DNA of 64,000 nt from Pontiellaceae bacterium. GTDB taxonomy: Bacteria; Verrucomicrobiota; Kiritimatiellia; Kiritimatiellales; Pontiellaceae. The notes beneath the pieces are model-generated. The model worked only from the letters and a program-made list of their open reading frames with translations. It did no database searches and was not told the origin of the DNA. The stretch is from positions 1-64,000 of the forward strand of contig JAFGVP010000088.1 of the NCBI GenBank assembly GCA_016937945.1, written 5' to 3'. Below, one piece after another: positions 20,005 to 52,496 of this stretch (positions are counted from its first letter, which is position 1; every line of letters starts with the position of its first letter). Position numbers and translations under genes: made by a program.

Positions 20005-20111
20005 ACCCTGTCGAAAGGGTTGAACTGCCCCCGTGAATCGCCCATAAAAGGAGCGTCATTTCCAATCGGTTGGAAAGGTATGGAGAAACACGCAGTACGG
20101 AATCCGTTCTT

Positions 20112-21770: not shown

Positions 21771-21792
21771 CTGATCTACATTACAACATACG

Positions 21793-21821
21793 GGCTATGT
21801 CATTTCTGAAATGCCATAGCC
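21793..21821. terminator. Hairpin between convergent glnS and the FGE-like gene
   Basis: GGCTATG-T-CATTTC (21793-21806) pairs with GAAATG-C-CATAGCC (21808-21821) with one mismatch and a one-base formal loop, so a few base pairs open in practice. It is placed to end both converging transcripts, but T-runs are weak. Confidence 0.6.
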
Positions 21822-21855
21822 TATTGATGGATTGTAAACATTCTTACCCATCGGA

Positions 21856-24030
21856 TCAGGGATTAACTTCCGGAGGAAGATCCACGCGAATCCGATAAAA
21901 GCGGCATCCTGTGGCGGCGGAATCTTCATAACTCTGAAGCTTTCCGTTACCCACGAAACCGGCGAGCAGCTTCCAATCAATCGGGTAGAGAGAATCACTG
22001 TATTCTATGAAGTAGAGACGGTCCGAGGCCGTCCAGCATGAGATAGTGACCGTTCCGCCGGCATCGCCCGCAACGCTGAAGTCTAAGTTTGAATCCGGAT
22101 CAATTGGACTGGATCCCAGCCACAGTTCTTCAAGATTCGTGTAGCCGTCATGATCCGGATCTTCATTTGGATATGCAGACGTTGCTGTTCCGAAATAGGC
22201 CGCCTCCCAATCATTTGGAAGTTCATCGCCATCACTGTCAACTGAGGGTTGCCAGATGTAGGTTTCTGCAATGGTCGATTCAACGAGGAGACGGTATGCA
22301 CGACTCGATACGTCGGTGCTGTCCTCTACTTCAACGATCGCCCCTGATCCCGTGAAGGACTGCAGATCCCTCCAGTCGCCGACCAAGAGTGACTCTCGGT
22401 ATTGAATACGATATGAACACCCGACGGCGGTCTGACAGGAGAGCAGGACCGTTCCATTCGTTGTCGCTGAAATTGCAAGATCAATATTGGAAATCGCGTT
22501 GGTCGGATCCGTACCCAGCCAGAACTCTTCCTGATTAGAGTAGCCGTCGCCATCCGAATCGCCCGATGCCACCATACCGGTCGTCGTACCGGAATACACC
22601 AGTTCCCAGTCATTCGGCAAATCATCATCATCGTTATCGGGCAGCCAGTGCCAGACAATGGTTGACGCCGTTTCCGTCAATGGAATGAGGCCGGTACTGC
22701 TGGTTGTTCCACTTGCAGCAATGGAGCCGGAACCGGTCCACCCCTTCAGAATATAAACTGTACCAGAAATATTAACAGATGCCTCTGCCGAACATTCAAC
22801 CGAGGAGCCCCATGCGTAGATATAGAGCCCCTCATCCGGAACCGTGGATGCTATGTCGGAAATGACCGCCAAGGTATAATCACGCGCATCCACCAGCGTC
22901 GTAGCCGATCCGGAAACCGATGTACCGGCATTCCGAACGGTTCGTATTCCGATATAGATTGAAGAATTGACCGGCAAATCTGCAAAGCTGTTACCACAAC
23001 GGGCCTGGTCTGCGCCATGCAGCCAACTGCCCCCTCTGAAGATTCGGTTGGTACCGCCGACATCCGTATCCCAGCACCACTCCCACACGTTGCCGATAAT
23101 TTCGTACAGCCCGTAATGGTTGGGCGCAAAAGATCCAGCCGGAAGTGTGAGAGGCCAATCCATTCCGGTATCAGGATGAAAGCCGCGGGTTGCACTCTGA
23201 TCATATCCAAGAGACGATGAACTGAAATAATTAGCATCGTCATGCGTCAGTGCATCCCCCTGAGGAAAACGCGTCGAAGCCCCGGCGCGGGCGGCATATT
23301 CCCACTCTTCACTGGTCGGCAAACGATAGCCCTCTGCACCAAGATCCCAATCCGGGCGATCCGTGCCGGTTCGGTAAGGAATACCGTCAACGGTATATGA
23401 GGGAGTCAATCCTTCCATTTCACTGCGCGCATTGCACCACTTAACGCTATCGTGCCAGCTCACAGCGGTAATGGGATGCCCGTTCGTCACCGCAATTCCC
23501 TGATTATCAAAATCATACCCGTTTGCGATCGCCCATTGATAAACGGAATTCCACATATCAAGAGTAACTTCTGACTGATCCATGTAGAGACTGTTGGTTG
23601 ACGTTAGAGAAAAGGCCCCATAGTCTGGATCGATTCCTGACTGAGTCCCCGAAGGGATGACCACCATTCCCGGCACCGGAGATGGCGTGGAACCATCTTC
23701 ATCAGCAGCGATTACCCAGAAAGTCAGCCCCTCTGAGCTGGATCCATTCCAGTCGGCGCCGGCATCCCAGACAATCGACCGATCGATTCCGGTCGCGATA
23801 TCTGAACCGACATCCCCGGTCAGACTGGAAAGCAGAACTTCATCACCGCCGTCGTAGGCGAGCAGCGAGACAGATACGGCATTCGTGATATCACTTGAAA
23901 TATCATAGCTTATGGTCACCAGCTTTGTGCCGGGCAACTGCTCTGCCATCATGTTATCCACGGTGACTACCGCGTAAGACGTCACACTGCAAAGAAGCAA
24001 CCAAACCACAAGCATCCATCTCGTTTTCAT
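21856..24030 (-). CDS. Secreted FGE/SUMF1-like protein with TSP3-like calcium loops
   Basis: A 724-residue secreted protein, last gene of the giant-protein operon. Signal peptide MKTRWMLVVWLLLCSVTSYA; AAGGAAG five bases before the ATG. A beta-rich N-terminal domain (about 25-125) precedes the FGE-sulfatase fold (about 125-390: EVTLDMWNSVYQWA, RLPTSEEWEYAARAG, GNVWEWCWD, RGGSWLHGADQARC). The usual first active-site Cys of formylglycine-generating enzymes (GGSxxC) is absent, so a binding role is more likely than sulfatase activation. Two DSDGDGYSNQEEFWLGTDP-type Ca-binding loops follow, each leading into a shared module with Tyr/Trp at fixed places and ending FYRIRVDLP. The 25-bp gap to the subtilase is the only junction without overlap. 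Confidence 0.82.
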   Translation of the reverse strand: MKTRWMLVVWLLLCSVTSYAVVTVDNMMAEQLPGTKLVTISYDISSDITNAVSVSLLAYDGGDEVLLSSLTGDVGSDIATGIDRSIVWDAGADWNGSSSEGLTFWVIAADEDGSTPSPVPGMVVIPSGTQSGIDPDYGAFSLTSTNSLYMDQSEVTLDMWNSVYQWAIANGYDFDNQGIAVTNGHPITAVSWHDSVKWCNARSEMEGLTPSYTVDGIPYRTGTDRPDWDLGAEGYRLPTSEEWEYAARAGASTRFPQGDALTHDDANYFSSSSLGYDQSATRGFHPDTGMDWPLTLPAGSFAPNHYGLYEIIGNVWEWCWDTDVGGTNRIFRGGSWLHGADQARCGNSFADLPVNSSIYIGIRTVRNAGTSVSGSATTLVDARDYTLAVISDIASTVPDEGLYIYAWGSSVECSAEASVNISGTVYILKGWTGSGSIAASGTTSSTGLIPLTETASTIVWHWLPDNDDDDLPNDWELVYSGTTTGMVASGDSDGDGYSNQEEFWLGTDPTNAISNIDLAISATTNGTVLLSCQTAVGCSYRIQYRESLLVGDWRDLQSFTGSGAIVEVEDSTDVSSRAYRLLVESTIAETYIWQPSVDSDGDELPNDWEAAYFGTATSAYPNEDPDHDGYTNLEELWLGSSPIDPDSNLDFSVAGDAGGTVTISCWTASDRLYFIEYSDSLYPIDWKLLAGFVGNGKLQSYEDSAATGCRFYRIRVDLPPEVNP

Positions 24031-24055
24031 TGTTCTTCCTTCGTTAAACATTCCT

Positions 24056-25465
24056 TCACTCCGATTCCGGAGTTACAACAATCCTGTAGAACGCTGCATC
24101 CGCGGCTGGCTGCAGCTGGAATTCCAACATCGTTCCATTGGTCTGCGTTGATGCGGAAACCGATGTCCAAACGGATAGATCCAAGCCAACAGATTCCTGC
24201 AGTTCGTATCTGATTCCCGGATGAATCTGTGTAGACACAACCAGATTTGACGGCGTAGCCTCCGTCACCTGCGGCCCAAAACCGTCAACAAGTCCGCTCA
24301 GTGCAGCCGCAAGCCAGGTCGCCTGTCCAAAATCAATCCGGCCCCAGCCATAACCCGGGTCCCACCCCGGATCGCCAAGATCAACCGCCGTGGTTTGCAG
24401 GATGGCGATTGCCTCGTCAGCAGACAGCAATGGATTGATTGAAAAGAGCGCCGCAAAAACCCCCGAGACCAAGGGGGTTGCATAGCTGGTTCCACTTCCG
24501 GAAACATAGCCAAGGGCTGATGTGGAATAGACCGATTTTCCGGGTGCCGCAAAATCGATGTGCGGGCCATAATGGGATTGCAGGACATCATTCTGGTCGG
24601 TCATGGAAACCGCAATAATGTAGGGCTGATTGGCATAATCAAGCAGTCCGTTTCCGTTTACGCCCGCCATGACTACCACACCATCAACGGTATCCCGCAC
24701 ATATTTTGCAGCCAGATTGAGCGTTTCGCTGTAGGCTCCATCCCAGCTGACGTTCACGACGCGCACCCCATGATCAGCACACCAACGAATGGCGGCATCC
24801 AGCTCACTCACCGTTGTGCTGGTCCCGCTGGTATTCTGCACAGGAATGATCGAACAGTTGGCCGCACCGGAAATCCCGATTCCATTGTCCAGCACGGCTG
24901 CCGCCATACCTGCCGACATGCTGGCATGATCATCAGAACCGGCCACCACCGTAACCTCCTGCTGCACATTCCATCCATTCACGGCGTTGGCCGCAAGGTC
25001 CGGATGAGCAGGATTGAACGGAAGATCAACAATCGCAATGATGACACCCGCATCACCGGTTCCCCACTCCCACGCCTGTGCACTGCCGATCATCTCATGA
25101 TGCCATTGATTGCCGTTCAGCGGATCGTTGGGCTCATACTGGCGCATCAGAACACGGTCTTTTTCAACAAATTCAACATCCTTGCGCCGGGCCAGCACAG
25201 CAATGGCCTTATCTGTATCCGCCGGAGCAACCAGCAGTCCGCGCACCCGGTCCTGCTGCCGGAACTTGATCAGAACCTCGCCGGAAGACTCCTCGCATGA
25301 CTGAGTGTGGACAGACTGACGATGATGAGCCCGCAATTGTCCAAGACTCATGGTCCGTTGCAACAGATCCGGATGTTCCAGTTCTGTCAGGCTCAGCGCG
25401 CCGGCCTCAGCCCCGGCACAGAGGCCGAGCAGGCAGACCATACAGTTCGTTACCCATCGTTTCAT
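24056..25465 (-). CDS. Secreted subtilase (S8) with altered Asp and His motifs
   Basis: A 469-residue protein with a signal peptide (MKRWVTNCMVCLLGLCAGAEA). An inhibitor-I9-like propeptide segment (VLIKFRQQDR ... DVEFVEKDRVL) is followed by the S8 domain. The catalytic Ser motif GSGTSYATPLVSG is intact and the oxyanion Asn appears in VVMAGVNGNG. The Asp motif reads IAIVDLPFNPAHPDL (DTG replaced by DLP) and the His motif reads DDHASMSAGMAAA (HGT replaced by HAS), so the triad residues remain but the flanking glycines are lost. Activity may be altered. It ends with the shared module (YELQESVGLDLSVW ... AAFYRIVV). The start overlaps the previous gene's stop (ATGA). Confidence 0.87.
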   Translation of the reverse strand: MKRWVTNCMVCLLGLCAGAEAGALSLTELEHPDLLQRTMSLGQLRAHHRQSVHTQSCEESSGEVLIKFRQQDRVRGLLVAPADTDKAIAVLARRKDVEFVEKDRVLMRQYEPNDPLNGNQWHHEMIGSAQAWEWGTGDAGVIIAIVDLPFNPAHPDLAANAVNGWNVQQEVTVVAGSDDHASMSAGMAAAVLDNGIGISGAANCSIIPVQNTSGTSTTVSELDAAIRWCADHGVRVVNVSWDGAYSETLNLAAKYVRDTVDGVVVMAGVNGNGLLDYANQPYIIAVSMTDQNDVLQSHYGPHIDFAAPGKSVYSTSALGYVSGSGTSYATPLVSGVFAALFSINPLLSADEAIAILQTTAVDLGDPGWDPGYGWGRIDFGQATWLAAALSGLVDGFGPQVTEATPSNLVVSTQIHPGIRYELQESVGLDLSVWTSVSASTQTNGTMLEFQLQPAADAAFYRIVVTPESE

Positions 25466-27087
25466 TTTTGTTCCACGGATATTCTGTAAAACACCGGTTG
25501 CCCTGCGGGAGCCGCCGGCTCACGGAAAATATTAAATGGCGGCGTCGCATTCAGGTTACCGGAAATCTGGTAGAAACCTTCAGTCAGGCTGGTTGCCCTC
25601 CACACCTTGTAGACCCGGCCGGAGACACTGGGCCATGCCAGCACCATGCCGCCGGTGCCCACATCCTTTTCCATGAGGAGCAGGAGCACCTCAGAGGCAT
25701 TCGTCGGCGAGGTACCGGCCACCCATTCCTCCCACGTCAGCATGCCGTCATGATCATGGTCAAGCAGTCCTGCGGTCTCCCACGTGTTGGTGAAGCCCTG
25801 ATCATAAAACCATCGTTGCGGGACACCGTTGGCATCAAAGTTTTCAGCAAACAGGGCAAAGATGGAACGAGGCCGATCCATGGGAACCTGAATCTGGTTA
25901 TTCGTTGCGGTGGTTCCGACAACATCCCCGGTCCACTCATCCACATGGTAGAACATGTCCGGAAGGCCCGTGATGGTTACGACATCCCCGGCATCCACCC
26001 ATTGGTCAGGCTCATCAACCAGACCATAGGAGCCGGAACCGGTATCCAGCCAATAGCGGGTATTCCACTCCCATGTCAACAGCATGTTGTTGGTCAGCGT
26101 GATCGACACGACCGAACCGGTACCGGAGGAGGTATCGATTCCCGTCAGCGTCCAGCCGGCAAACGAGTGTTCGGTCGTTCCATCCGACGTGAACGTATTG
26201 GTTACCATGCAGCTCACCACGGTTCCGTATGTATTGGTGTACACACCGGGCGGAGGTTGCGACAGTCCGGCAATCGACCGGATATCCAGAACAATAAACT
26301 CATAATCCGCCATCATACCTACGTTCGCCATCGCCACTTCCACCGCGTTTGAATAGCCCACGCTGAACGATGCGGTCAGCTCCGGATGGCTTGCCGGCCC
26401 ATAAAGCGTAACCTCGAATTCAGGCAGGCCGTTGTTGGCCATATTGACATGAGAGCTCGCAGAAAACAGGCTGCTCAGGTCAAAATATAGTTCCGCGCCG
26501 GACACCCCATCCCCGACAAACGAGGCAATCGGCCCGCTGGCACCGGCAGCTGTCAACACCCCGATCGCACCATCGGTCGTTGGAAGGAATGCGGTGGGAT
26601 CCAGCTGAATCAGCAACTGGCGCGACTCAAGCACGAAATCATTTTCCAGCTCGGTGGACACCGACAGCAAACCGTTGGTCGGCCACACAGCCGACCCGGT
26701 GCTGTTGGTGGCATGCACCCGGTAATAGTAGGTGGTCATCGGTTCGCACCCACTGATCCGGTGCAGGGCCAAACCTTTATCATTCGCCGCACTTCGAAGA
26801 GCCCGTTGATCGGCGCGCTGATAATAATTGGTCGAGATTGCAGGATCTCCCGTCTGTATCGGCGAGCGTTCCATGCCGACGGAACCCGAAAGACTGGTTG
26901 TGCCGGCCGCATCGGCATACACCTCAACCCAGGTTCCGGCCGGCTCGGTTGTACGAACCACCAGATCAAACTGAGAAGGTGTGGCATTGGCCGGAATACA
27001 CAGATCAATCTGCGGTGCAGCAGTAGCGCCTGATGCCAGCATCAATCCGGCGGCAAGAGCCATTCCATGATATTGCATTCTACTCAT
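25462..27087 (-). CDS. Secreted protein with InlB-like segment and calcium loop, unknown role
   Basis: A 541-residue protein. GGAGG lies six bases before the ATG at 27087; the start overlaps the rhodanese stop by eight bases. The signal peptide runs from MQYHGMALAAGLMLASGATA. An FN3-like N-terminal part has the words LHRISGCEPMTTYYYRVHATN; a middle domain (about 180-290) resembles a cadherin/cohesin-like beta sandwich. InlB-type segments follow (TLTNNMLLTWEWNTRYWLD, then ITGLPDMFYHVDEWTG). One EF-hand/dockerin-like loop (LDHDHDGMLTWEEWVAG) precedes the C-terminal module ending PVFYRISVEQ, also found in the next two genes. I cannot name a function; a secreted surface component is likely. Confidence 0.75.
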   Translation of the reverse strand: MSRMQYHGMALAAGLMLASGATAAPQIDLCIPANATPSQFDLVVRTTEPAGTWVEVYADAAGTTSLSGSVGMERSPIQTGDPAISTNYYQRADQRALRSAANDKGLALHRISGCEPMTTYYYRVHATNSTGSAVWPTNGLLSVSTELENDFVLESRQLLIQLDPTAFLPTTDGAIGVLTAAGASGPIASFVGDGVSGAELYFDLSSLFSASSHVNMANNGLPEFEVTLYGPASHPELTASFSVGYSNAVEVAMANVGMMADYEFIVLDIRSIAGLSQPPPGVYTNTYGTVVSCMVTNTFTSDGTTEHSFAGWTLTGIDTSSGTGSVVSITLTNNMLLTWEWNTRYWLDTGSGSYGLVDEPDQWVDAGDVVTITGLPDMFYHVDEWTGDVVGTTATNNQIQVPMDRPRSIFALFAENFDANGVPQRWFYDQGFTNTWETAGLLDHDHDGMLTWEEWVAGTSPTNASEVLLLLMEKDVGTGGMVLAWPSVSGRVYKVWRATSLTEGFYQISGNLNATPPFNIFREPAAPAGQPVFYRISVEQK

Positions 27088-27925
27088 CGTCAACCTCCAC
27101 CGTCTCCGCTCCCATGCCCATGCGCATCAGGCCGGGAGCCCCCCTGCGCTTGAGAATCTCTTCGCCTCCTGCAAGAATGACCACCCGTTTGATTCCATTA
27201 GCCTTGAGGATGCGTGCTGTTTTCTCAGCGGCACCATCTCCATTATCGATAAGGATCATGACCGGCACCGGCGGCGGATCAGCCATCCGGCCAAGGCCGC
27301 CCTCACCGGTCTCCGGACGGTTGACGACACCACTGACGTCAAACGGTGAGGTCACGACCGATCGACCGGGGAAAACTTCCGAGAGCGATGTGAGCGGCTC
27401 CGGCGCCGCCGGCTCGCCCTGACGGGTAAGCTTCCCCTCTTCGGGTTCCGGCGCCGTACGCAAATCAACAAGTACAGCATCGGCCGCATCCAGCTGTGTC
27501 AGATCCTGATAGGATATGTAGGCCGGCTTTTCCGCCGTGAACCCGATCGGCTGTGTCGTGGATCCCCGCGCCATCTCCCACGCGGCATAACCGCCCTCCA
27601 GGGCCTCGGCTTGGATACCGCTCTTTTCGTTGAGCAATTGTACTGCCTGATTGATCTTCTCGGTACCGAGGCCACTGTCATACACCACGACACGCCCCAG
27701 CGGCGGGAGCTTTTTCAGGGCCAGAACGCGCGCGGGAATATTGATCGCATTCGGAATATGACCCGACTGGTAAAAACCTTCCGGACGGATATCAATCACG
27801 GTTACCGGCTCTCCGGCATCCATCAGGTCCTTCAGCCCCGTTGGAGTAGCCGCCCAGCTGCTGATCACACCCAGTGCCGCCATTGCGGCACAGACTACCC
27901 GTGTATTTGTCATAATCGCCTTCAT
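27080..27925 (-). CDS. Secreted double rhodanese-like protein without catalytic Cys
   Basis: A 281-residue protein. GGAGACC lies eight bases before the ATG at 27925, which overlaps the stop of the TolB-like gene (ATGA). Signal peptide MKAIMTNTRVVCAAMAALGVISSWA. Two rhodanese-like halves: one at about 30-130 (VIDIRPEGFYQSGHIPNAIN, then VVVYDSGLGTEKINQAVQLL) and one at about 140-270 (AVLVDLRTAPEP, then MILIDNGDGAAEKTARIL). In both, the position of the active-site Cys (CxxGxR after the fourth strand) is occupied by Ser/Gly or Asn/Gly, so neither half should transfer sulfur. The retained GHIPNAINIP box argues for a folded, possibly protein-binding domain. Confidence 0.8.
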   Translation of the reverse strand: MKAIMTNTRVVCAAMAALGVISSWAATPTGLKDLMDAGEPVTVIDIRPEGFYQSGHIPNAINIPARVLALKKLPPLGRVVVYDSGLGTEKINQAVQLLNEKSGIQAEALEGGYAAWEMARGSTTQPIGFTAEKPAYISYQDLTQLDAADAVLVDLRTAPEPEEGKLTRQGEPAAPEPLTSLSEVFPGRSVVTSPFDVSGVVNRPETGEGGLGRMADPPPVPVMILIDNGDGAAEKTARILKANGIKRVVILAGGEEILKRRGAPGLMRMGMGAETVEVDDE

Positions 27926-43900: not shown

Positions 43901-46900
43901 TAACCACCGGCATGGTGGTATCGAAGGACGACAGGTGCAGGATGTACTGGCTCTTGACATCATCAAAGCCAAAGCCTGAGCCGACACGGACATAGTAGGT
44001 CCCGCTGCTTTCCGTGGTATATTCAACACTCGTCTGAGTTGCACTGTAGGGACCGCCCGCATTGGTGGCGATCATTGCATCGCCATACAGGGTTCCATCG
44101 TTTCCGCTACCGGACAGATCCGTCACATCGCCGTTAAAGTTCCAGTAACCGACCAACCCGCTTTCCGCGCCGGTTAACGCATGAGTGCGGACATCATTGA
44201 TCTCCGACGGCAACAGCGGTCGATCCCAGATGCGCAGTTCATCGATCCAGCCGTTGAGCCAGCGAGCATGGCCGACCCCCATGCGGGCAAAGGGATCCAT
44301 GACATCCTGGAATACCGCATCATTGCGAGATGTGCGCAGTACGCCGTTGACATACATACGCATAGAGGTATCACCCCACGTCAGCGCAATGTGCGTCCAT
44401 TCATAGGGCGGAATGGAACCCGATGACGGATTAAAGGTGATATCCTGATAACTCGATCCGTTCCCGATGCGGTTATAGAAGGTGTTATCGGTATAGGCAA
44501 ACATGGCGATCCAGTCCGACCAGTTTTCGCTGGCGGAATCGTGGGTCTGCCAGAAACCCCAATCGTACGATTCGCGCGGGAAGACCCATCCTTCTACCGT
44601 GCCGCCGCGCGGATTAAAGTTGGTCGTGGAGGTCAGCACATAGTCGGCATCTCCATCAAAATTAACAACGCTGGCCGTCCCGGTAGGTGACTGGTAGACC
44701 AGATTCCCGCCGGGATCCACTATATTGAGATACGGCATCATATTGTGGAACGAAGGCAGCTCGATCGAGGCCTGAATCACCGTGCCGGAGGCTAGATTGC
44801 CGAGACTGTAATAGTCGTATCCGGAATTGTAGAGGGAGAAGCCGGCCACTCGGGCTTCCTGTCGGCCGCCGCTCAGTGAAAGCACAGGCACATCGGCGGC
44901 ACCGGTGCTGTCGTTGGCTTCGGATTCAGCCTGCAATGAAGGCCGCGCAAGCTGCACCGCCACCTTATATTCTCCGCGATAGGCGTGATACTGCATTACA
45001 CGCACCGTATACCGTCCGGTAACCGGCAGGCTCAGCGGAGCCGACTGCCCATACCCGCCGTAATAATTGCCATAGAAGGTCGTGAGGGTACCGCCGTCCG
45101 GCCGATAGACATCCAGTCGAAGCTGATTGGCATTCAAATAATTCTGAATGCTGATTGCAACCGTCGCAATATCACCCGCCTCGGCGCTGAAACTCCAATA
45201 GTCATAATCGGAGTCGGTAGCAATGTTACCCAGTCCGAAGCTGGAGAACAGACCGCTTCCGGGCGGATCTTCCGTTAGCGATTCACGCGGAGTGCCAAGC
45301 AGGAGACTGACCGTACTGCTGCTATAGTCTGCCACGGCAAAGTCGGGCAGCCCATCCTCGTTAAAGTCACCAAAGACCTGATCAATCGGGTAGGATCCCA
45401 CGGCATAACTGGAAACATGATCGAACGAGCCATTGCCGTCCTGCTCCATGATTGCGAGTCGATGGGCATAGTGAAGTGCGCAGGCCAGATCGAGCCGGCC
45501 ATCGCCCGTAAAATCGGCCACCGTGATGTCGCCCCAGGGCGCATCCCCGATCGTCCAGCTACCGGCATTCGTAAAGGCACCGCCACCGAGGCCGCGGAAG
45601 AGCGTGACATTGTCGCTGCTGAAGTTTGCCACCACGATATCGGGAACCAGATCCTGGTTTATATCGGCAACAACAATGCCGCGCGGATCACTGCCCGCCG
45701 CATAGCTCACGGCCGGCTGCAAACTGCCGTCGCCATTGCCAAAGAGTACGCACATGGTATTGGCATTGTTGTTTGCAACGGTCACATCATTGGTGCCATC
45801 GCCGTCGAGGTCGTCCACGAAAATTCCAAACGGACCGTCACCGCAGGACTGCGCCAAAGGCGTTGCGAAGCTACCGTCGCCGCTTCCCAGCAGGATGCTA
45901 ACGGAATCGGCATATTCGTTACAGATGGCCAGATCCATCTCCCCGTCATTGTTCATATCGGCAATGGAAATATCGCGTGGTGCATCACCGACATACTGGT
46001 TGGTCTTCCAGACGAAGGCTCCGGCGCCATCGCCGAGCAGAATCGAAACGGTATCGGCATAGTAGTTGACTACAGCCAGGTCAAGATTGTCATCGCCGTC
46101 AAGCAGGCCGACTTCCAGTCCGACCGGTCCGTCTCCAACCGTAATATTGGTAGATAAAACAAAACCGCCGTCACCGTCACCCAGCAGGATACTCACGTGA
46201 TCGGAACTGAGGTTGGCCGTGGCCAGATCATCATGTCCGTCTCCGTTGAAATCTTCCCGTGCGACGGCATAGGGATTGGCGCCCACTCCGACGGAACCGT
46301 TAGCGATCAGCGATCCGGATTCTTCGCCGGGAATCACAGTACCGAGCGATGTCGCGGTTGCACCCGATTCGTTATCACGGCTTTCCAACGTGAAATCTTC
46401 AGGCGCCGCGATCGAGAACGTGCGCACATAATTTGCGTTCATCGGATTACCGGAACGATCCAGCAGCGAAGTCAGGGCGGTAAAACGCACAGCCCCGGAC
46501 TGAAGAGGGCCATCGGATACGAGATAGGTTGCCTGCAGGCCACTGGTATAGGTCGGAAGCACGGTGTATATTTCGTCGTCTGCCGTATCGAGCAGTCCGT
46601 CAAGTCCAGCAGAACGCAGTTCATAGCTTGCGGAACTGTTCACGGAATCCGCGTCCATTTCCTCGGAGAATGTCATGCTGAAGCGGTCAAGAACCGCCAT
46701 TGAATTGGTTCCGTCGATCGGCAGGGTCAGCTGCGTGATAGAGGGCGGCACGCCATCCTGAAGGGAAACATCAAGCACATACTGACGCATCAGGTCGCCC
46801 TGCTCGAGTGCATCACGAACACGAACATAGTAGATGCCGCTGTTCGTCGTAGTATACTGGAACGTTGTCGGATAACTGGAAGGATTACCGGGATCGCTGA

Positions 46901-49900
46901 TTATATCGGACGGCACAATGTGGCTGTTGCCGAACAGCGACAGATCGTTCCCCTGCGCCGTCAGATCATCGGCCGTGCCATCTTCAAAGTTCCAGTATCC
47001 GACGAGGCCTGATTCGGAGCCTGCAAGACCGGATGCAAGGTCCGACAGAATCTGGGACTGACTGCGCACGGCGTTCCAGATAGCGATTTCATCGATATCA
47101 CCAAGGAATGACTGGCTGGTCTGGAAACTGCCGGCCAACGCATCCTGTTCCTGTCCAATCACGAATGCCCCGCCCTGTACCATGTTATAGGCGGTGCGGA
47201 AATTGGCATTGGAGTGCACAAGTGTTCCGTTCCGATAAATGAGGCTCGTTCCGGTTACGCCGTCCCACGTCCACGCAACATGATTCCATCGTCCATTGTT
47301 GGCCGCGACACCGGAGTTGTAGGATGAACCGCCGAGGTAGGGATCAAAACTGCGGTAATCAAACAGGATCAGTTCATTATACTGTCCTGACCGTGCATAC
47401 GAGATCGGGGTTCCGTCTTTGCTCGTATCGGAACTTCTCATCCAGAACTCGGCCGTGAATGCAGTCGTGGGGAAATTGGTGATCGGATTAACGATCGCAT
47501 AATCCGCGTCCGTTCCGCCCAGACGCAAAACGAGGTTCGAGGTAAATGCCGCCGGCTGACCGGAGGGATCGATCATATCGACTTCCGGTATCAGCTCACT
47601 GCTTTCCGGCATGGTCAATGTAACATTCACCACCGTTCCCGACGTCAGGTTGCCGAGACTGTAGTAGTCGCCGGCGCCGTCGACCGCAGTCCCGATGTAT
47701 CCGACCACCGAAGCTGCAAGACCGTTGCTGCTTACGTCAAAACTAAGCAGGTCCGCCGCACCTACACTGTTGTTGTCTTCACTCTCCATCTGACCCGATG
47801 TCGGAACTTTACTTACGCGAACCCGGTACTCCTGCCAGTAGCTGTAATTGTAGTAAACCATCATGGCATAACGCCCGGTTTCCGGCAGGGTGATCGGAGG
47901 CGACTGTCCATAGCCGGACGAATTGGCGGAATAAGTTCCAAGATCAGCACCGGTGGACGACACCAGACGATAACGAAGACCGCTGTTGCCCGGGTTGCCG
48001 GGCACCTCGATGGCCATCACAATCTTGTCGCCGGCCACGCCGCTGAAGCCCCAGTAATCATAATCGGACGAGCTGGTAATGTTGCCGCGCCCCTGTCCGA
48101 AACGGAGCCCGCTTCCTTCCGGGTCCTCCGGCAGTATGATTTCCGCGTTGGCACCGTAGGTATAAACCTGATCATAATAGGGATTGACGACCGCAAGGTC
48201 ATCGATCATGTCACCGGTAAAATCACCCACCGCTATGGAATAGGGATAATAGTTTATCGTGAATTCGTGACTGGAAAAGGCGTAGGTTCCATCGCCCTGA
48301 TTATTAAAGAAATTGAGCCGGTAACCGTCATGTGAAGCCGTTGCGATTTCCGGAAATCCGTCGTCATTCAGGTCGAGCAGTTCGACATCGACCGGACCAT
48401 TGCAGCCGGCATAGTTGGTGACTGTCGCAAAGGTGCCGTCCCCGATTCCCATGAGAATCGCGATGTTGTCCGCATAGTAATTACCGACAACAAGATCAAC
48501 GGTTCCATCATCGTTAACGTCTCCGGCCTTGATACAGCGGGGACCGTCGCCGACCGGATAGGCAGCAGGGGCGGAAAACGTTCCGTCGCCGTTGTTGAGA
48601 TAAACAGACACATTATCAGATGAAAGGTTGGCCACGGCGACATCCAGATGTGCATCGCCATCCAGATAAGCCAGGGATACCTCCTCTGGACTGGTTCCGG
48701 TCGGAATGTTGGTGGATGTGACGAAATTGCCGGCGCCGTCACCCTTATAGATTCGGAGCGTACTGCTGTTATAATGAATCACGGCAAGATCGGTAAATGT
48801 GTCGCCGTCCAGATCGCCCGCTTTGATATCGTAGGGTGCATCGGCGGCCGCCAGGGTTGTCGGCGGCAGGAAGGTGCCGTCACCCTGCCCCATATAAACC
48901 ATGATGGAGTCAGCATATTCATTGGCAACGGCGAGGTCCAGGACGGCATCACCGTTAAAATGACCGAGGACGGCCTGACGTGGCCCGTCACCTGCGGCGA
49001 TGTTGGTGGCCACCGTAAAGGTGCCCAGTTCGTTCCCGAAAAGGATGGTAAGGGAGTCGGAATTAAAGTTGCAGGTGATCAGGTCAGCATGCAGATCGCC
49101 GTTGAGATCGGCTGTGATTACGTCCAGCGGATTATCGCCTACGCCGATCGTCTGCATATGCGATACAGAACCGTCGGCAACACTGTCCACCGTTCCTAAC
49201 GGTGTAGCAAGTGTCATGTTTCCATTGCTGCGGTTTTCATGCGTGAAGAGCGGAATGTTTTCGAGCCGGAATTCGCGGGCATAAGTCGATGAAATCGGGT
49301 TGCCGACCCGATCCTTAATATTGGTCGTTGCTGTGAAACGATACGTGCGATCAGGCTGAAGCGGCCCATCGGTGATGGAGAACGAAGCGGTAAGCGTATT
49401 GGCGGAATAGCTGGGCAGCAACGAATACACCTCATCATCACCGTTTCCAAATATGGCATCTTCGCCTGATGCGACCAGTTGCCAGGAGGCGGGATCCGTC
49501 ACGGAGGCAACATCCATGTATTCAGGAAAATTAACCGAGAACCGGTCGATGACCACCGTATTGGTGCTCCCTTCCGATGGGAGCGTATCGGATATGATGC
49601 CGGGCAGGCCGCTGTCCAGAATAAGGAAATCGACAATATATTGAGACAGCGTGTCATAAACGGACGAATTAACTTTGAGGTAAAGTACCGCATTGGTCGC
49701 TACATCATAATTAAAGACCGGTGTATTCGTGGCAAGCAGCACGGTACCGTCTGCCGTTTGCACCTCAAAATTTACATTACCCGAATTCAACGTGCTTCCA
49801 TCGGGGAAGCGGACGTTGACCGACATGGCATTTCCGGAGGATAGGTGGCCGAGATTGTAATAGTCGGCATTCTTTTCCAGTGCGCCGGCGATCCTGTTTT

Positions 49901-51260
49901 TCAGTGCGGGGGCATCGACTTCCCAACTGAGCGCATCGGCCTGCCCTGTGTTGTTGTTGTCTTCCGTTTCCAGAAAGCGCCCGCGCGCAAGGTCAAGTCG
50001 CAGGGTATAGGATGCCGGCGGCTGCCGTTCATAGTAAGGATCAAGCTGCAGATAGTATGTTCCGGCTGAAGGAATCACATAATCCTGCAAACGGGTAAAG
50101 TCGGTCCAGTTGTTGGGCGCCGAAAGCTGGGACCCACTGGCATTGAGTAAACGGATGTAAGGATTTACATCGCTTCGGCTGACCTGGACGAACGCGGTTA
50201 TCCGGTCGCCGGGTTCGGCATAAAAGGCCCAATAGTCGTCATCAGTCAAAGAAGAGAAGGTGCCGTAACCGGTCGCCGTGAAGAAACCGCTATCGGTTGG
50301 ACTTTCCTGAAGACTGAGATGATCCGCCCCCACCAGGCTCCCGTTATCGAGTCCTTCGATCGGTCCCGTAATGGCAAAGATATGAGCGAAGGGATCAATC
50401 GGGGCATCCACACTGTCCAGCAGGTTGGTGGTAGTGGAAAATCGATAGTTTCCGGGCTGTAACGGAATGTTGTTGCCGATGATCAGCGTAACGGTCTTGC
50501 CTCCGCTGTAGGATGGAATCAGGGTGTAGACAGCGTCGTCCGCAGTATCGAAGGAACCGTCGACGCCGGCGCCGAGCAGTTCATAACTATCCGCGCTGTT
50601 TGCTGCAGTGGTCGACAGGTTCCGAATGGCCGTCACGGTAAACCATTCAATAGGTTCACTCGCGATCCCGCTCGGAAGGGAGGTCCCGGCGATGGTGGTG
50701 GCCGACATAGTCTGTACGCGTATGTTGTCGATCCCCCACGATTCATCGCTGAGCGACTGCAGCCCCGTACCATAAAATGAAAACGGCACCGCGTTGGATG
50801 ATGGCGAAAAAACTATTTCCACATTGCGATAGATGGAGTCTAGATAGGAGAAATTGAATCCATATTGCGCGGGACCAAGGTCCGGCGGATCGGGATAGGT
50901 CTGACTGGTCGCATCATAGTGAAAGGAGTGGCTGAATACGTTCGAACTGCCGAGATCCACATTAAACGTATCGGCACCACCGTCCCATGAATCAATAATG
51001 TAGAGGTCAAAAAACAGGCTGTACTGTTCCGATACCGTCAGGTTGCTTACCGTCAAGGTCTGCGTGCTGTTCCCAAATCGTCCACTGAACGTCGTGAACG
51101 GATCAGGCACCGAACTTTCGAGAACGGCCTGAGACCACTCAGTACCAATACCGCCTTCAAAGTCGTTTGTATATAGAACGTAACCCGATGCGATGCCGCC
51201 AGCCGTGAATAGGCAAAAGATGACCATCAGACGAATGGAATAACTGAAATGCAAACTCAT
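31923..51260 (-). CDS. Giant secreted modular protein with C-terminal Hint domain
   Basis: About 6445 residues, first gene of the operon. AGGAGAA precedes ATG 51260. Signal peptide (FSYSIRLMVIFCLFTAGGIA), then an N-terminal jelly-roll-like domain. Next come modules in repeated order: SbsA-type Ig (starting near 50700, 49592, 46732, 43897, 41718), three seven-blade FG-GAP propellers, paired PPC-type domains (SDYDYWGFSGVAGD) and two LamG domains. Between about 41 and 33 kb lie two CARDB domains, InlB-like repeats (about 39850-39140), FN3-like domains, a parallel-beta-helix-like stretch (about 38200-37560), bacterial Ig-like domains and a carboxypeptidase-regulatory-like domain (about 33290-33030). 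A Gly-rich linker leads into a Hint domain from Cys at 32378. It is probably an exported adhesin or scaffold. Base composition is like its neighbours. Confidence 0.9.
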   Translation of the reverse strand: MSLHFSYSIRLMVIFCLFTAGGIASGYVLYTNDFEGGIGTEWSQAVLESSVPDPFTTFSGRFGNSTQTLTVSNLTVSEQYSLFFDLYIIDSWDGGADTFNVDLGSSNVFSHSFHYDATSQTYPDPPDLGPAQYGFNFSYLDSIYRNVEIVFSPSSNAVPFSFYGTGLQSLSDESWGIDNIRVQTMSATTIAGTSLPSGIASEPIEWFTVTAIRNLSTTAANSADSYELLGAGVDGSFDTADDAVYTLIPSYSGGKTVTLIIGNNIPLQPGNYRFSTTTNLLDSVDAPIDPFAHIFAITGPIEGLDNGSLVGADHLSLQESPTDSGFFTATGYGTFSSLTDDDYWAFYAEPGDRITAFVQVSRSDVNPYIRLLNASGSQLSAPNNWTDFTRLQDYVIPSAGTYYLQLDPYYERQPPASYTLRLDLARGRFLETEDNNNTGQADALSWEVDAPALKNRIAGALEKNADYYNLGHLSSGNAMSVNVRFPDGSTLNSGNVNFEVQTADGTVLLATNTPVFNYDVATNAVLYLKVNSSVYDTLSQYIVDFLILDSGLPGIISDTLPSEGSTNTVVIDRFSVNFPEYMDVASVTDPASWQLVASGEDAIFGNGDDEVYSLLPSYSANTLTASFSITDGPLQPDRTYRFTATTNIKDRVGNPISSTYAREFRLENIPLFTHENRSNGNMTLATPLGTVDSVADGSVSHMQTIGVGDNPLDVITADLNGDLHADLITCNFNSDSLTILFGNELGTFTVATNIAAGDGPRQAVLGHFNGDAVLDLAVANEYADSIMVYMGQGDGTFLPPTTLAAADAPYDIKAGDLDGDTFTDLAVIHYNSSTLRIYKGDGAGNFVTSTNIPTGTSPEEVSLAYLDGDAHLDVAVANLSSDNVSVYLNNGDGTFSAPAAYPVGDGPRCIKAGDVNDDGTVDLVVGNYYADNIAILMGIGDGTFATVTNYAGCNGPVDVELLDLNDDGFPEIATASHDGYRLNFFNNQGDGTYAFSSHEFTINYYPYSIAVGDFTGDMIDDLAVVNPYYDQVYTYGANAEIILPEDPEGSGLRFGQGRGNITSSSDYDYWGFSGVAGDKIVMAIEVPGNPGNSGLRYRLVSSTGADLGTYSANSSGYGQSPPITLPETGRYAMMVYYNYSYWQEYRVRVSKVPTSGQMESEDNNSVGAADLLSFDVSSNGLAASVVGYIGTAVDGAGDYYSLGNLTSGTVVNVTLTMPESSELIPEVDMIDPSGQPAAFTSNLVLRLGGTDADYAIVNPITNFPTTAFTAEFWMRSSDTSKDGTPISYARSGQYNELILFDYRSFDPYLGGSSYNSGVAANNGRWNHVAWTWDGVTGTSLIYRNGTLVHSNANFRTAYNMVQGGAFVIGQEQDALAGSFQTSQSFLGDIDEIAIWNAVRSQSQILSDLASGLAGSESGLVGYWNFEDGTADDLTAQGNDLSLFGNSHIVPSDIISDPGNPSSYPTTFQYTTTNSGIYYVRVRDALEQGDLMRQYVLDVSLQDGVPPSITQLTLPIDGTNSMAVLDRFSMTFSEEMDADSVNSSASYELRSAGLDGLLDTADDEIYTVLPTYTSGLQATYLVSDGPLQSGAVRFTALTSLLDRSGNPMNANYVRTFSIAAPEDFTLESRDNESGATATSLGTVIPGEESGSLIANGSVGVGANPYAVAREDFNGDGHDDLATANLSSDHVSILLGDGDGGFVLSTNITVGDGPVGLEVGLLDGDDNLDLAVVNYYADTVSILLGDGAGAFVWKTNQYVGDAPRDISIADMNNDGEMDLAICNEYADSVSILLGSGDGSFATPLAQSCGDGPFGIFVDDLDGDGTNDVTVANNNANTMCVLFGNGDGSLQPAVSYAAGSDPRGIVVADINQDLVPDIVVANFSSDNVTLFRGLGGGAFTNAGSWTIGDAPWGDITVADFTGDGRLDLACALHYAHRLAIMEQDGNGSFDHVSSYAVGSYPIDQVFGDFNEDGLPDFAVADYSSSTVSLLLGTPRESLTEDPPGSGLFSSFGLGNIATDSDYDYWSFSAEAGDIATVAISIQNYLNANQLRLDVYRPDGGTLTTFYGNYYGGYGQSAPLSLPVTGRYTVRVMQYHAYRGEYKVAVQLARPSLQAESEANDSTGAADVPVLSLSGGRQEARVAGFSLYNSGYDYYSLGNLASGTVIQASIELPSFHNMMPYLNIVDPGGNLVYQSPTGTASVVNFDGDADYVLTSTTNFNPRGGTVEGWVFPRESYDWGFWQTHDSASENWSDWIAMFAYTDNTFYNRIGNGSSYQDITFNPSSGSIPPYEWTHIALTWGDTSMRMYVNGVLRTSRNDAVFQDVMDPFARMGVGHARWLNGWIDELRIWDRPLLPSEINDVRTHALTGAESGLVGYWNFNGDVTDLSGSGNDGTLYGDAMIATNAGGPYSATQTSVEYTTESSGTYYVRVGSGFGFDDVKSQYILHLSSFDTTMPVVTGDTLPSAGSTNSTIIDRFSVTFSEEMEVSTVTDAGNFELRSAGADDIFGNGDDSTYALSISYSSGLTASFDITDGPLQPDLLRFMATDGVLDRSGTPLSPYTNTFSIAGLDGYLFESRSNNVGSRADNLNLVFTNMFDGTYSSEQILATGVNPISLASGMFNGDAHTDLVVVNYGSDSVSVMLGNGDSTFSASTNVAVGSGPTGVAVGMIDGDSHPDLAVANQSGDSVTVLLGDGSGGFAVSGTFYSGDGARNVAIADLNNDGFSDLVVANQNADTIGILLGNGDGTFASVTPVYAGDGPFDVAVLDFNQDGTNDVVTALRYADTVALFHGIGDGTFTAVTNLPVGDEPRMIVAADLNLDGLTDLACGNFSSDDVSILLGAGGALFAPAMNIWVGDGPWMNVQDIDGDTVVDLMTANQNSDSVSILFGDGYGQFSVPQVSSAGDGPVCLLAGDFDGLPGVELAVANYYDNTLHILSPDTASMLASDSADDAVRTQHGRGTMHDGSDVDCWTFEGVAGDQLRLAIEIPGFPTYSRQRWIIYRPDGVQLMNYVGEYYGYGQSPPVTLPMGGRYLMTVQPYDGYYGEYRFRLTTIAPPRQFESEDNNSTGNADAPAYVLQSGMRSAQMAGFIQGNDTSGDYFQLGNLGIGTTINLGIEWPASSTLSATLTIYGPQGQAAVLSPATNLVHVTATNGNFYARVSDAASTRGLDAQYLLNLTLSDSTPPEITSVSLPAEGVESTAIISSFTIGFSEAMEASAATDPANYELISAGPDGQLDTADDEIYPLVPGAYSGGSSITMSISQPPLQPGLMRLTIGTALKDILANGLPAPYVRTFTMSDIDGTIFEGRENGSVATATPMAMDDELYGLRGGTARGALLNTSDVDYFSFTASSNDTVIVGADSPSHGTYHRLRFRLVDTNDTIMAEFITPYYDERGQTAPVVIPQDGTYFVRVSAYDDYRGEYDIHVMAASDPLPLEAEDNGSIGTANALVMDTGPSNSVGSIGGYVSYVADNDYYAIGSVTNDQTILVGVRVPDDSGLVPVVSVYNSSGQYQEEEGSSGDGSAEVRITASNTYYVAVRSGVNTGGLGKDYVVDVEVLPTAAVVIPNLQVSLVSPPSGAGIQSGDAVLLSYIIRNTGSAPTAEGSWFDRVVLSSNKVMGDSDDYALATIAHIGNLEVGGAYTNQTTVTLPDGVSGDFYIVVYTDFGDLVNERLFEGDNISASAATFPVALAAYPDLKVENLQVSGSNEVGQVLHITWDSANRGTASTGGAVTERLRILRADNGAELYHQDIPVGGPLTVDAVVPHSVDYTTVQAVNHQIVVTTDYGNSYYEHDGISHASAEQNSASAIAQVMNYYNVTLTSSPVAGGSVSGGGHYPAGTIVNVSATVNTNALPYAFQNWKEYSTFRSASAEYSFLLTRNVNLTAYFGLPQFTISAIRVPAAGGSVTGAGTFNYGATSVMRAYPNPGYGFDRWQEGAVNRGTSVTVTNVVYGNHTLTAYFKELNPYHSVVTASDPAGVTAVSGAGFYTNGTSALFEAPVMTTNGPNRYIFQQFKLNNAHLAYTNAYLNTFTTLQPSNMNVVARYTAQSLVPQVKRVVRNLNDPVPATTNFTVDIVFDRTMKTNTPPLVIFTNDVQPAMSFNAASNGIWESTYVANDTFSLRPIPFSAGDDGDYGIVVSQVMDLYGSAIAPTNAASVEVNATPPDNPAFSLIASNATSVTLGWGDYTPPSDLYGYRLYRSGSSFTSVEGLAPIGFVGAGATIGTINGIQLDTPYHVAVAAVDLAGNRDPAVTSLAVQVDSSLPPPIIPGTTSIGADAVNLSWTGYNTAGLLGLEGFMVYHESVDFSDVTVLTPYTILPASTKSLLVENLDRSADHYFAVVAYNRLGEFEPLVSTVLWKDPYGGIIDENLLIGTGGAPGALFDIYRDIIVTNNATLTIDPGVTLRFHNGAGLYVEQGTLSAVGTVFNPIVFTSVEAAPAPGDWSGIVLGAGADGSQLTHVWIQYGAGLWIDGCDPGVDALSVLFNDPVGLSLEGDAALVTSNLLAQFNTIGLQQLDAAQLMLSQSIVVNNGTNALSGGANALYAPQVWWGSMNEVEVLSGLIGSVDYLPFLTTEPLITPAADTYDGIRDVGARMVRMKYACRVAESFRVSEDSTFNNVFFEDFVFTNSVLLSDGGGSKTLYVQYRNVNGETNTPIAVPINYVTDGPTIQSFNLSEGQVLERPKMVTGSASSPLGIAGLEFYVDDVLVASTNAAGLSVRWDIRAETLGTHRVKLLARDPHGEFSVSEFNVLVSPEPPPVPVITVPVNGSVTADASVTVEGTAEPHIGIRVRRSGAAMGETVADANGAFSMSVPLLEGNNVLVAEAFDTLGSAASASRTVIRDTGAPEAVVLDPTVFDPLQGMSLTWTLAASGESPTSFQVYWDTAPFSTAAEASYTGTVVNVTEYHLLGFADGHYYLGVVGYDGAGNASDLSNLVEGDYDTTPPAFTIGYDQSSPVGTGPLHMVLTSSEPLSGAPDLLVLPYGATGPTPLVVSNTAPNTFEADFNITSLTRSGLAQVRMSASDLYGNVFSGAPEGVDLVIDTAPPSGRIETIPVAPVQVLSNTALQVNLTLTEAPKPGTVPLVQLDPPAGATINVVMSGSGTNWVGTAQLSPLMGSGFCTLLLNVSDALDNVGTTVLSGASLEIYNTALPSAPAAPNLLNPVALKGGKVELAWYPVDNADSYNLYRMPGDSGTPITKVLSGIDTNIYLDLPPADGFYRYAVSAERRGSESGLSQVYTEISDRTPPNEPSNLVVQLQASGVQVTWTAPEEGEAPLRYNVYRNGTKIGSPYVPTPINDYPPRGSSVYQVASADWLGNEAYSETNEFVMLVPAVANFEILMQYGQAPALSWTRGDASIVGVNLYRNGIKLNTAPLTGESYQDSSYTGNSLVEYELRSVDSLGQEGPGRIANVYRLELGLEINASDGGVPVLYYFDEYSVSVENRTLAEAFPAESVELRRTYSGATAVTVDTPVTNSVSANATLTTDVPMASMASAQIQSVRVRMMQTPNASGAQVIYQRLFTFEGARVPVQMVSITTTNTPLAGTLADFKARVHNRGQADMDVVLFRNGGGQPGDVYLSIQNALGDELSSGRFQGTVPGLKYASDGRGYVTVDAGGYVDVLLQDILVPNSLASAGSMTVEAGVDAVYHALGSAEEQVSGPISGTARIGLSLTDYYGTSATDKDGYANDEQILITGQARRRSDNAPLPDTPLRIGFAMGSHQWNEEVTTDGTGSYSFTYDVPAGIAGELTIWAAHPDMVDRIDQNTVSIHRLFVLPRYGDIRMSKNDLYTFSLNLINPGELTLNGLNASVRAYRMDGTNEIDIATVTATPMWTNGQSIGPNERITFPVELQAEISAPDNAVIEIRFAADEGAADTFTANLTLLDAVPVVDVVSPASGYVDVTVNRGQLVTRTVTIVNRGVRDYEGVTMAPAATLDWIFPTLLAGVDGLYHLPDLPVGASNTFDVVYAPPEDQPMDRYSDVFVISGTNHPATFNVPLYATVSSADKGDIQLFVQNTLSIPVPGASLRLRNGLLGTEHEVVTTGTNGIVMVENLQEGLWYWQVSAPGHTTQAGSVDVIPDQVAEISTRLTKNVVTVNFTVVPVPFTDRYEIVIEQTFETHVPAPVMVVTPAWQRFQDVDAGFQVQFNITVKNHGLIALNDLKITKQEFSWGSMIPLVEYLPRLDPFQEVQIPVVVTYYGDVEGDSQAQRQSWGSCVYDMLGAITNFGKNLENLINRLAGQYQCANSLDAATANAAVSVLMEIHKWKGSPLPPGVLELAVMIGCAFEGSGDSGGGNGGGPANSGGTGYGTGTPECLDPGTSILLEDGRRIEARLLAVGDRVRSGLEDHETAEVAEITRGVGTHWVVFEFEDDQEQTLSVTDEHRIWIDGHGWTAARNVKAGDAVISNSGRRVEIVAATSVEESRPFISIRLSGDTAMFAEGVLVHDRCGWWAPSEGPLQNMEVAP
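31945..32378 (-). other. Hint (Hedgehog/intein-type) self-processing domain at the giant protein's C-terminus
   Basis: Codons from 32378 down to about 31970 encode a Hint fold. It opens ECLDPGTSILLEDGR (nucleophile Cys after a Gly/Ser-rich linker), followed by VGDRVRSG, block B SVTDEHRIWIDG with the conserved T-x-x-H, and ends VLVHDRCGWW, where HN of inteins is HD. Only about 15 residues follow, so there is no true C-extein or toxin. This points to N-S acyl shift and C-terminal release or attachment rather than splicing. The assignment is by motif, not by search. Confidence 0.75.
41719..43897 (-). repeat. Giant-protein super-repeat unit 3 (no LamG)
   Basis: About 2.18 kb. SbsA-Ig (DTLPSAGSTNSTIIDRFSV), propeller at 43456-42475, then a PPC pair directly followed by the fourth internal SbsA-Ig at 41718. 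The LamG present in units 1 and 2 is missing, which accounts for the shorter length. Confidence 0.78.
42475..43456 (-). repeat. FG-GAP seven-bladed propeller 3
   Basis: Seven repeats opening GVNPISLASGMFNGDAHTDL, about 141 bp per blade. The last blade (LLAGDFDGLPGVELAVAN) has a lengthened, less acidic loop. Confidence 0.78.
43898..46732 (-). repeat. Giant-protein super-repeat unit 2
   Basis: About 2.84 kb, the same module order as unit 1. The SbsA-Ig opens LTLPIDGTNSMAVLDRFSM, then a propeller at 46295-45300, a PPC pair and LamG at about 44665-44090 (WTHIALTWGDTSMRMYVNG). It is diverged at the DNA level but clearly parallel in protein. Confidence 0.8.
45300..46295 (-). repeat. FG-GAP seven-bladed propeller 2
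   Basis: Seven repeats (for example DFNGDGHDDLATANLSSD, VSILLG, then GDGPVGLEVG) at about 141 bp per blade. The Asp-rich loops D-x-D/N-G-D/x-x-x-D-L are kept in all blades. Confidence 0.8.
46733..49592 (-). repeat. Giant-protein super-repeat unit 1 (SbsA-Ig, propeller, PPC pair, LamG)
   Basis: About 2.86 kb. Opens with an SbsA-type Ig domain (DTLPSEGSTNTVVIDRFSV), then a seven-blade FG-GAP propeller, two PPC-type domains and a LamG domain (about 47540-46930) with the word WNHVAWTWDG. Unit 2 repeats the same order, so the two arose by internal duplication. Confidence 0.8.
48160..49150 (-). repeat. FG-GAP seven-bladed propeller 1
   Basis: Seven repeats of about 47 residues, each with a calcium loop like DLNGDLHADL and the word VAN or equivalent plus a closing ILFG-type strand. 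Seven blades is the integrin-alpha-like number, so a complete closed propeller is expected. Confidence 0.8.
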
Positions 51261-51479: not shown

Positions 51480-52496
51480 ATGTATTTAACAATCTTTTCT
51501 CCTCTGATTACCTGCCCATGGCAGAGCCGCATACGAGCGACGATTCTTCTGGCACTCGTCCTGCCGCTTTATCAGGCAACGGGAGGAGCGGACCTTGTAA
51601 TCCTGCCGTCGCAGGAAGTAAATCTGGGAACCTTCCCGGCCGAAGCTGCGCAGACTGCATCCTTTACGGTATCCAATAGCACGGACCGTGTCATTCGGCT
51701 CAGAAGTCCGGAATCCTGCTGTGCAATGATCGAGCCGGTCCTGTTTGGCAATGAAATCATGCCCGGAAAATGCATCCCGCTCGATGTGCTGATCGAACCC
51801 GGAAGTCTCACGGGCCCGTTCCGCAAATCATTCGCACTTAAATCGCATCACACCGCAGCCTCCCCAATCACCTTGTGGATCAGCGGAACGGCCGAACCCG
51901 CCATATTCCTTCCGACATCCCACCTATTGGCGGGATGGACCGAGCAAGGAAAACCATGGTCTACGAATATGACGATAAAGGTTCGATCGGATATGACCGG
52001 AAAATTACAGGCGGACACACGCTCGAACATCGGCCTTAAAACCGAGGTCAAAGGAAGCTCAAATTCCACCTACACATTGTACTTCGACGCACCGGCCCAT
52101 CAGGCACCGACCAACTGGTATGGTACGGTCACCCTCTCCGTCACCGGCACCAACGGCGCGGCTTCCTGCCAGGTGCAGCTTGATGGCTGCATCGGCGGCA
52201 GCCTGCTTCCTCAGGCCCAAAAGCTGACCCTCACCAAAAATCAGTCCAGCATATCATTTAATCTGGCGCGAAAGTATCCGTCCCCACCGCCGGCCGTCCC
52301 GGCCGCACTCACCATCAACAATGCACACGTGCAAATCAAGGATGCGCCATCTTCTCAAACGGGAATGAGCAGGATCACCCTCGTATTCGACAACATCTTT
52401 CTGGAGCAGCTGCAGCAGGAAGTCCGGATTCCGCTCCGGCTTCAGGCCGCAGACTGCACCCCCGCCCCTATTATCATCGAATATCTGTCCCGATAG
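51480..52496 (+). CDS. Secreted DUF1573-like (ASH/MSP-fold) protein
   Basis: A 338-residue protein with a long signal peptide (hydrophobic core ATILLALVLPLYQATGGA). Then comes a DUF1573-type segment: VNLGTFPAEAAQTASFTVSN, then CCAMIEPVL, where the Cys pair and the strand pattern fit the family; a second beta-sandwich follows. DUF1573 proteins are secreted Ig-like proteins common in Bacteroidetes and PVC bacteria, of unknown role. No clear ribosome site precedes the ATG, so the start is uncertain. It is divergent from the giant operon across an AT-rich region with dyad symmetry, so shared control is possible. Confidence 0.7.
   Translation: MYLTIFSPLITCPWQSRIRATILLALVLPLYQATGGADLVILPSQEVNLGTFPAEAAQTASFTVSNSTDRVIRLRSPESCCAMIEPVLFGNEIMPGKCIPLDVLIEPGSLTGPFRKSFALKSHHTAASPITLWISGTAEPAIFLPTSHLLAGWTEQGKPWSTNMTIKVRSDMTGKLQADTRSNIGLKTEVKGSSNSTYTLYFDAPAHQAPTNWYGTVTLSVTGTNGAASCQVQLDGCIGGSLLPQAQKLTLTKNQSSISFNLARKYPSPPPAVPAALTINNAHVQIKDAPSSQTGMSRITLVFDNIFLEQLQQEVRIPLRLQAADCTPAPIIIEYLSR

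Follow-up and report, generated by a model that had tools for sequence, protein, structure and literature searches.

A conserved gene set for a giant, predicted exported, Hint-ended protein in a Pontiellaceae-like genome and its apparent kinship to RHS polymorphic-toxin carriers

Analysis of the window (the whole stretch of 64,000 nucleotides under study, from a Pontiellaceae-like Kiritimatiellota genome) revealed six minus-strand genes with overlapping or tight junctions (21856-51260), here designated A to F. We favour, with moderate confidence, the reading that they belong to a conserved extracellular giant-scaffold system akin to the RHS polymorphic-toxin carriers, in which an autoprocessing Hint domain would stand at the payload position instead of an RHS/toxin tip. 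This reading builds on the A-B-C-D order, on the coupling of A to B, on the fold and residues of the Hint domain, which has no C-terminal Asn and is followed by no recognised toxin, and on the pairing of one module of A with one of B. For giant proteins found in Kiritimatiellota and in Verrucomicrobiota, most of which have no known role, it provides a connection to a defined, conserved gene set as well as to the carriers of RHS toxins.

Judging by their sequences, the six genes form a translationally coupled operon for predicted exported proteins (Table 1). ATGA overlaps are present at A/B, B/C and D/E and an 8-bp overlap at C/D, the same junctions listed in the first-pass annotation, which had described six minus-strand genes with gaps of at most 25 bp; the E/F gap is indeed 4 bp, or 25 bp with the alternative start of F (ATG at 24030). 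The start of B is ambiguous, with a possible one 36 nt downstream, as are those of C and D, for which upstream TTGs are present. The N-termini of A-F look Sec-signal-like, by eye only, in keeping with the export signals earlier ascribed to all products. Over positions 21000-32500 promoter-like matches numbered 2 (7.9 in shuffles) and terminator-like matches 3 (9.3 in shuffles), both below the shuffled expectation; strong internal promoters or terminators had been put forward as a possible refutation of the operon. The region upstream of A holds a single promoter-like match (51473-51446), no more frequent than expected by chance; the pattern search found no terminator-type match 3' of F.

Table 1. 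Features of the operon and its surroundings, in window coordinates.
Feature	Position	Strand	Description
Gene A	31923-51260	-	6445-aa giant, predicted exported; homologues in other genomes
Gene B	27922-31926	-	1334 aa, predicted exported; conserved N-terminal module and TolB-like propeller
Gene C	27080-27925	-	Predicted exported tandem rhodanese-like protein without active-site Cys
Gene D	25462-27087	-	Predicted exported InlB-like / calcium-loop-type protein
Gene E	24056-25465	-	469-aa subtilase, triad positions kept; lineage-specific
Gene F	21856-24051	-	731-aa FGE-like protein with TSP3-type repeats; lineage-specific
DUF1573 gene	51480-52496	+	Divergent from A; probable associated part
A residues 1-3180 (approximate)	41721-51260	-	Repeated Big_5 / FG-GAP / PPC / LamG units; less conserved half
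A core module, residues 5201-6182	32715-35660	-	Common to RHS-type and fused giants
Hint domain of A, Cys6295-Cys6428	31977-32378	-	Block-B His6363; Asp6426 replaces C-terminal Asn
GGAGGT ribosome-binding site of B	31933-31938	-	Inside the 3' end of the A coding sequence
B N-terminal module, residues 28-490	30457-31845	-	No Pfam, NCBIfam or PDB sequence match; predicted all-beta

The search for B covered 288 genomes from the class, and the neighbourhoods of the matches were then read. Two genomes of the same genus (G157 and G108) carry all six genes in the same order and a third (G161) carries A-E over two contigs, with F absent beside E, so that the order proposed for checking in the first-pass annotation is found entire in two congeners and for five genes in another, and the refuting case named there, an order conserved nowhere among relatives, did not arise; a 4.7-kb contig of G209 runs from the 3' part of A through B into the beginning of C. 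In two genomes of other families (G186 and G136) A-B-C-D is followed by a DUF1573 gene, with no E or F. Scanning GTDB with the alignment of B yielded 36 loci, 22 of which (L050-L071) constitute class I, with a full-length or contig-cut B and A upstream. Their hosts are Kiritimatiellota, Opitutales, Puniceicoccaceae, Haloferula, Verrucomicrobia subdivision 3 and MAGs labelled Lentisphaerae, together with four MAGs labelled Deltaproteobacteria, Deferrisomatales or unnamed. Of the class I loci whose flanking sequence is long enough for the gene in question, all (20/20) carry C and all (18/18) carry D. The comparison loci are mostly MAGs, and all counts are of loci, 24 of them distinct, five of the nine genomes read first being duplicates of scan records. 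In other families the A homologues resemble that of the window chiefly beyond residue 3180 or so. ORFs on the reverse strand that in some loci occupy the site of C (e.g. G235 20520-21509) were discarded as shadow ORFs, C itself lying on the other strand. Because the order recurs in other genomes the arrangement is more than chance, and the conserved unit is A-B-C-D, with E and F as lineage-specific extras. Within the genus the B module was found in only 6 of 28 genomes (in five of the six in operon form), which indicates that the system is dispensable.

The fixed set of six genes proposed earlier is therefore rejected, as E and F vary; paired, they were seen in no genus but that of the window. 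That set also left out the divergent DUF1573 gene next to A, which has the same placement in G157 and G108. A narrower reading, in which only A-D are one system and E, F and DUF1573 are chance neighbours at a genus-level locus, would fit the lack of E and F in other families and the abundance of such genes in the window's genome (6 places for S8 and 9 for FGE). We consider it rather unlikely, since E adjoins D in the four genus members where it is seen and F is present in three, D and E overlap in the window, and DUF1573 genes occupy only 4 sites of the genome and turn up again next to the system in another order. The DUF1573 genes of the f31/f2 group are no more than possible orthologues of that in the window, and E and F themselves may be passengers. 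A glutamyl/glutaminyl-tRNA synthetase gene lies beside the operon (20070-21770) and its counterpart in G157 (88% identity) about 6 kb away, so the position of the locus is partly shared.

At the junction between A and B the stop codon of A overlaps the start of B as ATGA in 21 of the 24 loci and as GTGA in the other three, where the start of B is taken to be that GTG. At most of these loci a GGAGG-type site lies in the last codons of A. The C-terminus of A reads EVAP in the window's genus and KGGA(Q/R) in the f31/f2 group, and both endings encode GGAGGT a few bases 5' of the B start; the ribosome-binding site of B thus accounts for the conservation of the last residues of A.

In class I the C-terminal region of A is composed of a segment with two invariant Cys, usually a Gly-rich linker, the Hint domain and a short tail. 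Pfam PT-HINT is above its cut-off in L066 (8.6e-15) and L058 (5.4e-12), and the window's Hint taken alone is below it (4.8e-4). The profile of the Hint alignment matches BIL domains and 8w20 (1e-15 to 1e-18), and the structural model of the domain, with pLDDT >90 over most of its length, retrieved BIL2, the gp41-1 intein and Hedgehog with Foldseek. Cys1 (C6295), the block-B His (H6363) and three further Cys are invariant in 22/22 full-length rows, the rows outside the window's genus being 22-31% identical. C6428, among these invariant Cys, lies two residues past the position of the C-terminal Asn, which is occupied by D, H or Q in 24/24 rows. In the accepted chemistry of Hint domains, Cys1 and the block-B His permit an N-S acyl shift and, on the N-terminal side, cleavage or transfer, and loss of the Asn blocks splicing. 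The Hint of A was accordingly rejected as a splicing intein; it retains the residues for N-terminal cleavage, a reaction that is predicted on the strength of those residues. The domain resembles the BIL and Hedgehog Hint domains in fold, Cys1 and block-B His, and differs from them in that it ends a 6445-residue protein, has lost the C-terminal Asn and bears the invariant Cys beyond it.

Other PT-HINT proteins of the phylum were used as controls; of these, L140 and L143 retain VHN and extend for 120-140 residues beyond the matched part. The terminal Cys is also seen in the L140 motif (VHNDC), and may be a leftover of this ordinary PT-HINT motif. Three exported-looking proteins from other families of the phylum (L144, L145 and L147) represent a tandem-Hint family, with a Hint ending in VHNKGCF followed by a second Hint-like start, and another short-tailed Hint without VHN is found in a different family of the class (L142).

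The alignment of the B N-terminal module comprised 34 rows, and the module, predicted to be mostly beta, is present in 26 of the 388 genomes of the phylum sample. The search for a known fold gave weak integrin matches only (E 4.5e-4, TM 0.16), and none is claimed. Three arrangements of A core and B module were found. In class I they are placed in coupled genes, with Hint. In class II, found in gammaproteobacteria, the A core is accompanied by RHS repeats, either within its own ORF or in the one that follows, and then by the B module, and the Kangiella-type loci add rhodanese-like and transglutaminase-like genes. In class III (G151, G157 C4, G066, G144, G344, G448, G457 and L084) both are part of one polypeptide that contains only the second half of the A core. 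As both Hint and RHS are lacking in these fused relatives, the Hint is not needed for the pairing of core and B module, and by the Rosetta-stone argument their fusion suggests that the two act together. The B-module tree places class I and class II in distinct groups, each of them supported.

Comparison of two RHS proteins from Cellvibrio gave 64-82% identity for the late core and about 20% for the tip, the conserved core and divergent tip being the pattern of polymorphic toxins. The class II RHS ORFs of L072, L073, L082 and L085 close with C-x-C ends (CECSQ, CGCN, CVCSR and CECKI) preceded by differing tips, and the class II rhodanese-like proteins likewise have a Cys near the C-terminus. Runs of small ORFs are located between the RHS and B-module genes (L085:5943-9742 and L082:8279-9607), as immunity genes would be; two small ORFs (L085:5943-6389 and L072:9229-9648) gave no Pfam match.

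The link to RHS toxin carriers, provided by the core and B-module homologues that accompany RHS proteins, was absent from the first-pass annotation. RHS is present in these homologous class II loci, and Pfam gave no RHS match in A itself. HINT and RHS toxins have been covered by Zhang et al. 2012 (PMC3482391), in whose searched text rhodanese, CARDB and FG-GAP are not mentioned. Compared with the RHS/YD-repeat polymorphic toxin systems (PMC3482391), A is likewise a large multi-domain carrier, predicted to be exported and with a C-terminal Hint of the PT-HINT type, and homologues of its core and of the B module sit with variable-tip RHS proteins; unlike those systems, it is devoid of RHS repeats, of a toxin after the Hint and of the Hint Asn, no immunity gene was seen, and B, C and D are conserved partners. 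The PT-HINT-type domain and the homologues found alongside variable-tip RHS proteins would also suit a strict polymorphic toxin system, with A as carrier and a toxin tip that is short, that escapes recognition or that comes from elsewhere by exchange. However, no toxin domain was recognised after the Hint in class I A proteins, whose short tails are conserved within groups and not variable, the Asn used to release a C-terminal payload is missing, and the A/B overlap at all 24 loci leaves no room for an immunity gene, all of which makes this explanation distinctly unlikely. As the toxin, RHS and Asn features are lacking, the system is not called a member of the RHS polymorphic-toxin carriers, to which it is related via its modules.

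The domain content of A comprises Pfam matches to FG-GAP, LamG, PPC, Big_5, fn3 and CARDB, as well as glucodextranase-type domains, with internal repeats in the N-terminal half. The propeller repeats of B match TIGR04275 (96.6 bits, cut-off 85), D is InlB-like (1.3e-7), E matches Peptidase_S8 (1.8e-30), with the Asp/His/Ser triad positions kept in four genus sequences, and F matches FGE-sulfatase (1.4e-32). C is like the rhodanese superfamily in that its domain 1 matches Pfam Rhodanese (4e-16), and unlike it in being predicted exported, tandem and without the active-site Cys, which is absent in 16/16 aligned rows; the second domain shows a D-x-(G/A)-D-G type loop in most class I rows. The earlier description of C as a Cys-less rhodanese is thus right for the active-site loops but not for the whole protein, which holds one Cys in the signal region.

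The LamG, PPC, FG-GAP and glucodextranase-type domains might alternatively denote a plain polysaccharide-degradation or cellulosome-like surface complex, in which A would be a scaffold adhering to algal glycans and the Hint an inactive, decayed remnant. Relatives that degrade marine polysaccharides (Pontiella, PMC10880615) and the giant surface proteins reported in the superphylum (PMC12057145) lend weight to this proposal, against which stand the lack of any catalytic glycan-degrading domain in A-F in the domain searches and the invariance of Cys1 and the block-B His across such divergent rows, which argues against decay. On balance it appears unlikely.

The flexible part of the locus contains an S8 protease in L054, a trypsin-like protease in L055 and, in L056, L063 and L066, proteins encoded between C and D that show an HExxHxxGxxD (metzincin-like) motif, recognised by eye. 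In L052 a cyclophilin takes this place, and in L053 and L065 no same-direction gene does. The recurrence of unrelated protease families in this part renders the protease partner of the earlier model plausible, and the adhesin or scaffold reading of that model fits the domains of A; the Hint, without its C-terminal Asn, is not expected to splice.

In the giant-scaffold system that we favour, all operon products would be exported and the B N-terminal module would bind the A core while both are being made, with the repeat-rich N-terminal half of A possibly binding a surface or glycan. The Hint could form a thioester at Cys6295, as in the Hedgehog-like N-terminal half-reaction, which would then either free the C-terminus of A or link A to a nucleophile on the cell surface. 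C and D may be non-catalytic binding or assembly parts, and a locus-specific protease, here the subtilase E, may mature the complex. The purpose would most likely be adhesion to, or contact with, polysaccharide particles or other cells. Cys6295 offers a testable catalytic step in a natural Hint without the C-terminal half-reaction.

Giant surface proteins of the PVC group (e.g. Ca. Menyafoubacter, PMC12057145) are very long and extracellular, with adhesive and carbohydrate-related domains. A is comparable to them in length, in such domains and in its superphylum, and differs from them in ending with a Hint and in being encoded within a conserved set of coupled genes. The literature search, in which subscription papers and preprints were thinly covered, returned no description of this gene set, and a paper on lipocone proteins yielded no matching system. 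A link to S-layers (PMC13274458) was discarded, the words RHS, rhodanese and transglutaminase being unrelated rows of a mutation table.

The analysis also highlights two protein modules, the A core and the B N-terminal module, the latter without a Pfam or NCBIfam family. As a speculative extension, which we hold to be improbable, the two could be an undescribed docking pair of a widespread extracellular platform with exchangeable ends, namely an RHS toxin shell, a Hint that serves for autoprocessing, or direct fusion; where the end is a Hint, this half-Hint would covalently attach the giant to the cell surface, as a bacterial counterpart of Hedgehog-type C-terminal attachment. The window's genome has no second B-module match, and two RHS-repeat ORFs of about 2,200 aa are located elsewhere in it (G000:C38 and G000:C66, loci L086-L093). 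Four B-module matches are gathered in a single genome at G344:C1:4681420-5217842 (L129, L130 and L114), two of them in open frames of >9,400 residues.
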